Positions 25,430-29,380 of a stretch of DNA of 64,000 nt are shown here, one piece after another. The DNA comes from Leptobrachium leishanense (taxonomy: Eukaryota > Chordata > Amphibia > Anura > Megophryidae). The position numbers and the translations under genes are program-made. The notes beneath the pieces were generated by a model. It had not been told where the DNA came from. It searched no databases and worked only from the letters and a program-made list of their open reading frames with translations. The DNA is taken from the NCBI GenBank assembly GCA_009667805.1, contig CM019066.1:330888619-330952618 (forward strand), given 5' to 3'. Position 1 is the first letter of the stretch, and every line of letters begins with the position of its first letter.

Positions 25430-26973
25430 ATGGATTCAGGAGAGGCTGTGGCGTTTGTGCTCATCACATATACTTATTTGAGGAAAACAAAGAAGCAAAA
25501 GTGGTGGGTTCATCCTGTCAACTGTGCGCGATACTGTCATGGTGCCTTTGTGACGCTATACAAGCCACTACGGGAGAAGGACCCAGTGAAGTTCTTCAGC
25601 TTTCTCAGGATGTCGATACCATCGTTCAACGAGCTTTTGGCCACTGTGAGAGAGCAGTTGAGGAAGATTGACATCAACATGAGGACCACCATATCACCTG
25701 AGTTGCTTTTCTTCACATTAAGGTAAGAAAGGAAGTCTGTAGTGACGTGCTCACTATTTTTAAGACTGAGACACACAGAACATATATACCCAGTCATTGC
25801 TCGTTGGGGTTGAGGGGATGCTTGTGGTTGGTCCCACTTCTGTTGAGCCTGAGGGTGTTGGCTCTCTTGATTCTGCGGTGCTTGATTTTCTCGGTTCTAT
25901 GCTGCTTACTGTGGGTCTTGGCTCTAAACTTATTTTCAGGAAGGATAGTTGATCAGCATAAATGTAATTGCGGATCTTCTTGGCTCCTGACCCCGATCAT
26001 TCCTCCTGTTTTTTTATGCTGCGTACATAGTTGTCCCTCAAGGTGCGCCATTTGACGATGACTTCTTGTACTAAAAAACAAAAAGAATGACATAAAGTTA
26101 CTAAATGCACTCATAACCCAAAACCTCTATGTTCTTTAAAGGTATCTTGCGCGTGGCTGCAGTTTGCAAGATATACATTACTCGTTTCGTATTGGGAGAT
26201 CAACGGCAGGTATTTTGATATGGAAAGTGTGTAAAACTATTTGGAACACACTCAAAGATGAATGCATACCGACGCCAACCGAGGACACATGGGCCCATAT
26301 AGCTTGCGGATTTCAAAAAAGAGACGATTTCCTGAACTGCCTTGGGGCAGTGGACGGGAAACACATCCGATTTATCAAGCCAGAGCGAAGTGGATCATTG
26401 TATATGAACTACAAACACTTGGACTACTGGCAGTAGCTGACGCTAACTACAGATTCACGTATGTCGATGTTGTATCGTATGGTAAAGACTCCGACACGAC
26501 TATTTCGAAATTCGACCATCTGGGACCAAATTCAGAGCAGGAGCCTGAGTATACCAAGGCCAAAATAATTACCTGGCACCGACATCGCTGTGCCATTCGC
26601 CTTTGTGGGGGATGAGGCGTTTGGACTGTTCTCTAACTTACTGCACCCATATTGTGGAACACAGCTGAGCGATAAGAAGCGGGTGTTCAATTATAGGTTG
26701 TCCAGAGCTAGGCACTATGTGGAATGTTCATTTGGCATCCTAACAAACAAATGGCACATTTTCCATCGGCCATTGAATGTAAATGTCGACATTGTAAAGT
26801 GCTGCTGTGTGTTACACAACTTTGTCCGAGACTGAGATGGCTACAATCTCGATGACTATGTGAACACTGCTGCTATGTGTGTAAATACTAGAAACTTTCG
26901 CTCTAGAGACACTTTAGCGGATTATTTTGTGAGTGAGAATGGACAAGTACCATGGCAGATGGGTAGAATTTAA
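25430..26973 (+). pseudogene. Harbinger (HARBI1-like) transposase, two exons, decayed
   Basis: Exon 1 is 25430-25722 and exon 2 is 26142-26973. The intron has a consensus donor (AAG/GTAAGA) and acceptor (TTCTTTAAAG/G), and splicing joins the frames exactly to give TLRYLARGC. Exon 1 carries the LREKD..FFSFLRMS region. Exon 2 has GAVDGKHI (first Asp), FVGDEAFG (second Asp) and YVECSFGIL (Glu), the PIF/Harbinger DDE triad. Damage: about 10 bases lost after NYKH (about 26415), another shift near 26565, and a stop at 26833-26835 (R/D then TGA) before the natural end at 26971-26973. AATAAA follows at 27095-27100. About the usual 350-residue length if repaired. Confidence 0.9.
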
Positions 26974-27383
26974 ATGTAAATATAGTGATTTCTTTTTCTC
27001 TGTCACCAGTTTTCAAATAATATAGTTTTGTAAAGTCATTTTTGAATAGTGATTTGAATAGTTATTTGTGTATATTGATTTGTAAAAACTTGTAAATAAA
27101 AATGTATATAGTTATGATCTTTAATTTGTCTCATACTGTGTTTTTTGGCGTTTGGGCATTTTTGGGATTGAATTTTGAAAGTGTTTTTTTTCCCATTTTT
27201 TTTGTAAATCAGTTGGAAACGTGAAACTGAAACAGAATAGTGTTGTAAATGTCAAAAAGTGCCAGTATATGGTCTTGGGGTAGGAGTAGGGCTAGGGGTA
27301 GGGTTTGCAATGCATAAAACAGTTCAATTGAATTACACATAATTTACAACGCTGAAATACATTTTTACCAAAAAAGGTATATA

Positions 27384-28997
27384 CAGTTGTGTTCAAAATT
27401 ATTCAACCCTCAATGCTGTAAAGGGTTTTAGGGAATTTAGTGTACATTTGTAATTGTATTCAGAATGAAATCCTACAAGGACTTTTTAAAGAACCATATG
27501 CAACTAAAATGACATCAATTGGTTTTGTAATACAGTAGTAAATGTTTCTTTTGTGAATTCTTCATTGACACAATTATTCAACCCCTTAAAGACTACCACT
27601 CTGAAGAACAGAGGTTCATTCAAGTGTTTTCAATCAGGTATTGAAAACACCTGTGGATGTCACGGAGCAGCAATAAAGCATAATAAGCACCAATTAGGCA
27701 GCTTTAAAATGACTGTGATACTCAGCTCCTTCTAGACATTTACTGGTGTGGTTACAAACATGGTGAAGTCAAGAGAATGGTCCAGGAAGACAAGAGAAGA
27801 GGTGATTACTCTTCACAGGAAGGGCAATGGCTATAAGAAGATTGCAAAGATGTTAAACATACCAAGAGAGACCATAGGAAGCATCATTCGCAAATTCAAG
27901 GCAAAGGGCACTGTTGAAACGCTACCTGGTCGTGGCAGAAAGAAGATGCTGACTTCGACTGCTGTGCGCTACCTGAAGCGTAGAGTGGAGAAAAGTCCCG
28001 GTGTGACTGCTGAGGAAATGAGAAAAGATTTGTCAGATGTGGGTACTGAAGTGTCAGCTCAGACAATACGGCGCACACTGCGTAATGAAGACCTCCATGC
28101 CAGAACTCCCAGGCGCACCCCCTTGCTGTCTCCAAAGAATAAGAGTCGACTGCAGTATGCCAAAAGTCATGTGGACAAACCACAGAAGTTTTGGGATAGT
28201 GTTCTGTGGACTGATGAAACAAAATTAGAACTGTTTGGGCCCATGGATCAACGCTATGTTTGGAGGAGGGAGAACAAGGCCTATGAAGAAAAGAACACCT
28301 TGCCTACTGTGAAGCATGGCGGGGGGTCAATCATGCTTTGGGGCTGTTTTGCTTCTGCAGGTACAGGGAAGCTTCAGCGTGTGCAAGGTACCATGAATTC
28401 TCTTCAGTACCAGGAGATATTGGATGACAATGTGATGCAGTCCGTCACAAATCTGAGGCTTGGGAGACGGTGGACCTTTCAACAGGACAATGATCCCAAG
28501 CATACCTCCAAGTCCACTAGAGCATGGTTGCAGATTAAAGGCTGGAACATTTTGGAGTGGCCATCGCAGTCACCTGACTTAAATCCGATTGAGAACCTCT
28601 GGTGGGACTTAAAGAAAGCAGTTGCAGTGCGCAAGCATAAGAATGTGACTGAGCTGGAGGCTTTTGCCCATGACGAATGGGCGAAGATACCCGTAGATCG
28701 CTGCAAGACACTTGTGTCAAGCTATGCTTCACGTTTAAAAGCTGTTATAACTGTAAAAGGATGTTGTACTAAGTACTAAGATTGAATGTCACTTGGGGGT
28801 TGAATAAAACTGATAATGATGTGAGCACAGAAAAGACATTTGTGGTTATTTCATTATAAATGTTATGTTATATTTGTCTGACCTACACGTGCCTCTTTGA
28901 TTTAATTGTAAGCAAGATGACTGAATGATCAAAATCAATGTCAAACTTGCCAAAACACTCAATTTCAGTGGGGGTTGAATAATTTTGAACACAACTG
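27384..28997 (+). mobile_element. Tc1 transposon, copy 2, potentially intact
   Basis: The ends are CAGTTGTGTTCAAAATTATT and its complement, with flanking TA (27382-27383 and 28998-28999). It is 1,614 bp. Inner repeats (ACAATTATTCAACCCC near 27570, and inverted near 28795) give the IR/DR layout. It is inserted inside the long intron of the Harbinger MADF gene. Confidence 0.95.
27760..28779 (+). CDS. Tc1 transposase, complete open frame
   Basis: This is the cut-and-paste transposase, 339 residues from the ATG at 27760; an in-frame GTG 12 nt upstream is not a eukaryotic start. Residues about 1-110 form the paired-like two-part HTH DNA-binding domain with the linking GRGRKK motif (57-62) and a basic nuclear-import-like stretch. 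The catalytic triad is D152 (WTDETK), D243 (QQDNDPKH) and E278 (SPDLNPIE), i.e. DD34E, with the glycine-rich HGGGS loop between. The length and spacing match active Sleeping Beauty-type enzymes. No stop or frameshift is present. Whether it is active cannot be read from sequence. Confidence 0.95.
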   Translation: MVKSREWSRKTREEVITLHRKGNGYKKIAKMLNIPRETIGSIIRKFKAKGTVETLPGRGRKKMLTSTAVRYLKRRVEKSPGVTAEEMRKDLSDVGTEVSAQTIRRTLRNEDLHARTPRRTPLLSPKNKSRLQYAKSHVDKPQKFWDSVLWTDETKLELFGPMDQRYVWRRENKAYEEKNTLPTVKHGGGSIMLWGCFASAGTGKLQRVQGTMNSLQYQEILDDNVMQSVTNLRLGRRWTFQQDNDPKHTSKSTRAWLQIKGWNILEWPSQSPDLNPIENLWWDLKKAVAVRKHKNVTELEAFAHDEWAKIPVDRCKTLVSSYASRLKAVITVKGCCTKY

Positions 28998-29380
28998 TAA
29001 TATGTGCGCATTTCAATAAACAAGTGGACAAAGCAGCGTAGAAACATTAAAACAGTAATGGGCACTTTTGTACTGAGAATTTGTTAAAACGTATGGTCAT
29101 ATGGGTTAAAGACAGACACCCGATAGACACAAATACTGTCCAGCCAGGACTCGTAATCCTCGTACAGCTGTTTAGCAACCTCAGCCCATGCTTCCCCTTT
29201 CTTCACTTTGTCCTTATAGTTGGAATTTGCGGTGTCCCACAACTCAGGGGTGCTGTTGGACTAGGTGGATGGGCTCCTCTGCATCCATCACAGGTGAGCA
29301 GGAACGCTTGCTGTGTGTGTGTAGGAGATGGCGATGGATCGTGAGAGGAGCTGATGTGCAGCGAGTCGAGCGTCTCACGT

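Follow-up and report, generated by a model that had tools for sequence, protein, structure and literature searches.

PIF/Harbinger transposons are unusual in needing two element-encoded proteins. Described systems (zebrafish Harbinger3_DR, rice Ping/Pong, HARBI1 and NAIF1) combine a DDE_Tnp_4 transposase with a Myb/SANT/MADF protein, terminal inverted repeats and 3-bp TWA duplications, and the two proteins of the zebrafish and rice elements are reported to interact and to be needed for transposition, according to the literature (PMC9710019). In the descriptions consulted, the two genes are independent or neighbours, and none places an exon in its partner's intron on the opposite strand. By contrast, we found such an arrangement in the frog Leptobrachium leishanense. 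The DNA analysed, hereafter the window, comprises 64,000 nucleotides of assembly GCA_009667805.1 (contig CM019066.1, positions 330,888,619 to 330,952,618, forward strand). It holds a decayed PIF/Harbinger element with the exon order T1(+) M2(−) T2(+) M1(−), where T denotes the DDE transposase, M the MADF protein and the numeral the exon. Very probably, the element is a PIF/Harbinger transposon with two genes that interlock reciprocally, one on each strand.

Two further systems resemble this one. In Drosophila, btv (Dync2h1) and CG5674 are reported to occupy opposite strands and to be strongly mutually nested, all CG5674 exons lying in btv introns (PMC10556659). Unlike btv and CG5674, which form a single host locus, the frog genes lie within one mobile element and their products are expected partners. 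Co-domesticated insect PIF transposase/MADF pairs bring the same two protein families side by side, and for one pair from Anopheles the annotation gives a single transcript. Unlike the frog genes, the insect pairs are neighbours whose direction is not always the same, with no interlock described in the sections available (PMC9710019). Our literature searches yielded no title or abstract that indicates this layout in a transposon, an earlier description in the zebrafish Harbinger3_DR paper, the original Harbinger report of Kapitonov and Jurka (2004) or Repbase being possible. Harbingers with two genes are already known, as are host genes nested in each other; an interlock inside a transposon appears to be new.

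The original prediction, made from the window alone, placed the second MADF exon inside the transposase intron and the second transposase exon inside the MADF intron. Reading the window confirmed both placements, M2 being present as a remnant, and the intron coordinates were correct at both ends (Table 1): each intron runs from GT to AG on its own strand, in phase 2 for the transposase and phase 1 for the MADF gene. The exon joins read TLR-YLA (transposase) and LD-I-QEV (MADF). The two-protein composition known for Harbinger was also recovered, in the form of a DDE_Tnp_4 transposase and a MADF gene. The window copy retained the interlocked layout; both of its genes are dead, most of M2 is missing and the MADF intron has been lengthened by a Tc1 element.

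We searched the 3.54-Gb assembly from which the window was taken. When the window element was used as a DNA query, 50 matches were obtained, with 40 of 3402 candidates scored; two groups were distinguished, one with 88% identity to the window and the other, family B, with 81%. Family A, a group with many copies of near-equal score, was brought in by a transposase-domain search. Scored loci were gathered via transposase DNA, element DNA or MADF exon-1 DNA. According to four-exon protein searches over the fetched loci, 52 rows contained T2 and represented 49 distinct copies (L009 is the window, L010 and L042 are one copy, as are L012 and L040; L039 and L044, without T2, were left uncounted).

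The order and strands T1(+) M2(−) T2(+) M1(−) were found in 34 of the 34 rows with four exons, the window among them, such that one coding exon of either gene falls within an intron of its partner on the opposite strand. The 18 rows with fewer exons all agreed; 16 of these are informative, and two (L001 and L005), with T2 alone, test nothing. The original prediction had proposed to look for conserved introns and frames in other copies from the same genome, and these were present, with nearly invariant splice dinucleotides. MADF exons outside the transposase intron, which it had named as contrary to the claim, were seen in none of the rows read. Because the tblastn matches of the window exons to other families were strong (E-values from 3e-117 for T2 to 1e-15 for M1; Table 1) and the order was constant in every readable row, the layout is not attributable to chance. 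The window copy does hold nested inserts, consistent with the idea that chance or a nested insertion put a MADF fragment into the transposase intron of this copy alone. Against this idea, several lineages share the order, as does every other row in which it could be read. We rejected chance placement and nested insertion, to which we attach virtually no credence, as the order conformed in all four-exon and informative partial rows.

The layout extends to distant relatives. In family B, the block matching M1 mostly spans 29132-29288 of the window, nearly the exact exon, and its flanks do not align. The transposases of lineage C (L001 and L005) are 48% and 43% identical to that of family A, and the order M2-T2-M1 was found in this lineage when its own exon sequences were used as queries. 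Intron phases agreed wherever they were read, down to these transposases of 43–48% identity; phase 1 of the MADF intron was read in lineages A to E, in C at the acceptor alone. Judged from sequence, the interlocked layout is real and conserved in this genome across several families that are only distantly related. With the transposase alignment as query, no relatives were returned from viral contigs or from bacterial and archaeal genomes; the relatives found in other animals were proteins, and conservation of the layout is thus known from one genome.

To describe the splice sites, we aligned 35 sequences from family B, the 88% group and the window, some of them being the same copy. The transposase donor dinucleotide was kept in 21 of 21 aligned sequences, the transposase acceptor in 32 of 32 and the MADF acceptor in 31 of 32. 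The MADF donor was kept in 27 of 32, having been lost in two and misaligned in three, with the window's own donor failing to align. The two introns overlap by only 53–98 bp overall, in a segment that carries two opposed 3′ splice sites. Using a pattern that permitted ~50–105 bp, this segment measured 65–80 bp in 41 rows, including the window. In five further loci, it measured 97 and 98 bp (lineage C), 79 bp (family D), 53 bp (lineage E) and 76 bp (L070).

Family A provided young copies. Eight of these, of 3134–3142 bp (~3.14 kb), shared 99.55–99.87% pairwise identity. Their termini (GGCTAGGG...) form terminal inverted repeats, and the ends of family B were also read. The 3-bp flanks were identical in seven of the eight copies (four TAA, two TTA and one TGA) and were TTA/TAA in the eighth, which identifies a TWA-type 3-bp target-site duplication. 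On inspection of the open reading frames, both genes were open in four of the eight copies (L059, L060, L062 and L066). In L060, transposase exons 1003-1298 and 2425-3307 yield a predicted protein of 392 aa, and MADF exons 3397-3583 and 1599-2344 one of 310 aa, with the splice sites GTACGT/TCTTCTAG and GTGAGTAT/TTTTGCAG. The DDE_Tnp_4 (HARBI1-like) domain scored 117.9 bits in family A. With the exons joined, PF10545 (MADF) scored 51.5 bits in family A and 69.2 bits in family B, relative to a cut-off of 22. Alone, MADF exon 1 matched profile positions 1-37, and exon 2 matched positions 45-84 at 19.3 bits, below the cut-off. Overall, the layout, the splice signals and phases, their conservation and, in young copies, the open genes and target-site duplications can all be read in the DNA itself.

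These data suggest how the two genes would be expressed. Transcription of the transposase gene would enter from the left end, through T1 and then T2, and that of the MADF gene from the right end, through M1 and then M2. Removal of the partner's exon by splicing would join the two halves of the MADF domain in one transcript and the transposase N-terminus to the DDE domain in the other; splicing in cells and the transcript ends are both predicted from these signals. Because the partner's exon would be removed, the coding sequences of the mature mRNAs should be complementary to little or no extent. In L060, the sequence ATTAAA at 3376 is a poly(A) signal for the transposase, 21 bp ahead of the inner M1 edge; for the MADF gene, two weak variant poly(A) signals lie ~200 bp short of T1. 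If the transcripts end at these signals, the pre-mRNAs would overlap by ~1.9 kb. With the transposase signal so close to M1, the two ends would nearly abut in this young family. A complete lack of complementary exon sequence between the mature mRNAs is plausible but unproven, as it depends on the transcript ends. By analogy with other Harbingers, the two proteins probably act together.

Comparison of one pair of copies suggests that T2, M1 and M2 have been under purifying selection. Between one copy each of the subfamilies A2 (L060) and A1 (L002), dN/dS was 0.31 for T2, 0.12 for M1 and 0.26 for M2. Between family A and two family B copies, dN was 0.22–0.70 and synonymous sites were at or near saturation. 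No dN/dS is given for this comparison because dS was mostly incomputable at saturation.

Several observations weigh against the interlocked two-gene interpretation. The dN/dS of T1 between L060 and L002, 0.77 on 48 codons only, is uninformative and gives no clear sign of purifying selection. No T1 was recovered from lineage C or E. The match of HTH_Tnp_4 across the transposase junction was weak (19.1 bits, below the cut-off of 27). The window copy can make neither protein, the splice junctions are drawn from sequence and deposited gene models as opposed to RNA, and a search of the protein collection with the family A and family B MADF proteins returned no standalone MADF protein.

Deposited proteins bear on both predicted joins. 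A protein search identified 2112 transposase relatives, with 24 L. leishanense entries among the best 120. The L. leishanense transposases displayed at full length, P0001 and P0010, are contiguous over the T1/T2 junction; among the 24 entries, a 392-aa cluster of 63 members crosses it. Aphid and termite relatives aligned over 98–100% of the protein at 61–64%, and identities across transposases of other frogs, fish, aphids and termites were 48–65%. A TLRY(L/P)(A/G/S) motif at the transposase junction occurred in 62 of 123 proteins, a crude count over mixed and partial entries that was not used as evidence. Among the best 120, the aphid and termite proteins P0012 and P0015 were 64% identical to family A, versus 48–51% for those of Rana, Xenopus and Bufo (P0053, P0063, P0071, P0100 and P0102). 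This closeness hints at horizontal transfer.

MADF matches in the protein collection were two entries for family A and one for family B, in each case an L. leishanense gene model in which MADF sequence is fused with host exons. In P0121, named TRAF interacting protein, M1 is connected to M2 at the expected position. P0122 and P0123, named MHC class I-like and chondroitin sulfate N-acetylgalactosaminyltransferase 1, lack M1; their M2 is linked to host exons, and by sequence they enter at or beside the M2 acceptor. All three are deposited gene models whose underlying evidence is not inspectable. The models lacking M1 would fit a reading in which one MADF half is unspliced, M2 being expressed alone or M1 and M2 being separate genes, such that there is no true interlock; that the M1-M2 join rests on sequence and deposited models also leaves room for it. 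We consider this reading very improbable. The intron splits the MADF domain and P0121 joins its halves, the donor and acceptor signals are conserved, the phase is 1 in lineages A to E (in C at the acceptor alone), and M1 had a dN/dS of 0.12 in the single pair compared.

The interlocked arrangement was also recovered when the search started from the MADF gene. In a genome-wide scan with the MADF profile, 150 of 4918 candidates were scored. Of these matches, 144 start at the domain start and end by position 63, five contain the second part only and one spans positions 1-77 with stops. Since 149 of the 150 scored matches are partial, raw genomic scans will see the domain in pieces. Five loci, 5 of 12 first chosen, were picked by hand from the 150 rows; they are non-random and all on the minus strand. 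Each of the five had antisense transposase (T2) sequence 3′ of M1. In L069, L070 and L071, M2 lay within the stretch and transposase sequence lay between M1 and M2; in L068 and L072, T2-M1 was seen and M2 would fall beyond the stretch. L069 represents a further family, D, with all four exons, of which M2 and T2 are open and M1 is frameshifted. L071 represents a more distant lineage, E, with the order M2-T2-M1 and phase 1 at both ends of the MADF intron. At 1555-2905, L070 contains both MADF exons (M2 with an open frame of 289 codons, M1 frameshifted) and a T2 reduced to a 35-aa stub; on its sequence, it would be a transposase-deleted derivative. In L072, a Tc1-like piece also breaks T2.

It is less clear why the layout has persisted. 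One explanation, to which we give about an even chance, is that the interlock is real and a historical accident of compact packing, with no regulatory role, kept since no single event easily undoes it. Consistent with this explanation, the length of the shared intron segment drifts (65–80 bp in 41 rows and 53–98 bp in five more), and nested or interleaved host genes are termed fairly common in metazoan genomes in a 2008 paper (PMC2291194). By contrast, the layout has been kept at 43–48% transposase identity and with the synonymous sites of families A and B near or at saturation, which fits constraint and does not demand function. A more tentative possibility, which we regard as rather unlikely, is that the interlock is ancient and selectively maintained in a broad clade of animal Harbingers. 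It would then couple two obligatory proteins via pre-mRNAs that are antisense over ~2 kb, with splicing alone making the messages non-complementary; unspliced or retained RNA would be double-stranded and could report or limit transposon expression, and neither gene would be easily lost or captured alone.

Whatever maintains it, the interlock means that some Harbinger lineages physically bind their two genes: any block that includes the whole of one gene also includes an exon of its partner. These elements provide a small, naturally occurring system for studying convergent transcription, opposing splice acceptors and double-stranded RNA. The interlock may also explain why the second gene was overlooked. 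Gene predictors of 2008 could not predict interleaved genes, according to a paper of that year (PMC2291194), and of the best 120 transposase matches in the protein collection at least 24 are L. leishanense clusters, versus three MADF relatives, all host-fused.

Table 1. Positions of the Harbinger copy, its exons and introns, and later insertions in the window.
Feature	Position	Strand	Basis or remark
Harbinger left end, decayed terminal inverted repeat, GGCACACTAGC core	25251..25290	+	Compared with family B termini; L029 alignment from 25248
Transposase exon 1 (T1), open, 97 codons + 2 bases	25430..25722	+	tblastn to family B T1 83%, E 6e-52
Transposase intron, phase 2, GT..AG	25723..26141	+	Shortened by deletion in the window copy
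Junction with extra sequence in family B, including C-terminal part of MADF exon 2	25791..25798		Family B comparison
MADF exon 2 (M2) remnant, second half of MADF domain, truncated, with stop	25799..26070	−	tblastn to family B M2 73%, E 6e-36
Segment common to both introns, 71 bp, two opposed 3′ splice sites	26071..26141		Pattern search
Transposase exon 2 (T2), DDE catalytic domain, premature stops and frameshifts	26142..26973	+	PF13359 59.4 bits on 26569-26832; tblastn E 3e-117
MADF intron, phase 1, GT..AG on minus strand, holds T2 and Tc1 insertion	26071..29136	−	Acceptor aligned with family; donor read directly
MADF exon 1 (M1), first half of MADF domain, frameshifted	29137..29288	−	tblastn E 1e-15
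Tc1/mariner element, 57-nt inverted arms, open transposase frame 27736-28779 (347 codons)	27382..28999	+	Nested in MADF intron
Second insert, ~515 bp, right flank of element	29386..29900		Harbinger similarity returns at 29901-29930

The window copy is a dead member of the group with later insertions. It spans 25251 to at least 29385, and similarity to Harbinger picks up again beyond the second insert (Table 1). TTA directly precedes the left end, at 25248-25250; the right-side flank is obscured by the insert, because of which the right end was not located. T2 carries frame-shifting indels as well as premature stops, the frame of M1 shifts after 14 codons, and the MADF intron is long because the Tc1 element sits inside it. 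The transposase intron is 1126 bp in L060, ~1.18 kb in L029 and ~1.33 kb in L032. Of 20 family B rows, 17 have 766–1004 bp of extra sequence between 25792 and 25798, and the other three have 148, 427 and 1351 bp there. In a first Pfam scan, the 78-aa M2 piece of the window and T1 alone gave no family, and the MADF halves of the window were assigned via homology to families A and B, not by a Pfam match of their own.

Two minor observations concern flanking sequence. The region in which the second insert of the window starts (29370-29500) is repeated at 96–99% identity in 32 of 40 matches scored. Beside the lineage C Harbinger copy of L005, an open frame at 1-420 resembles an endogenous retroviral envelope fragment.

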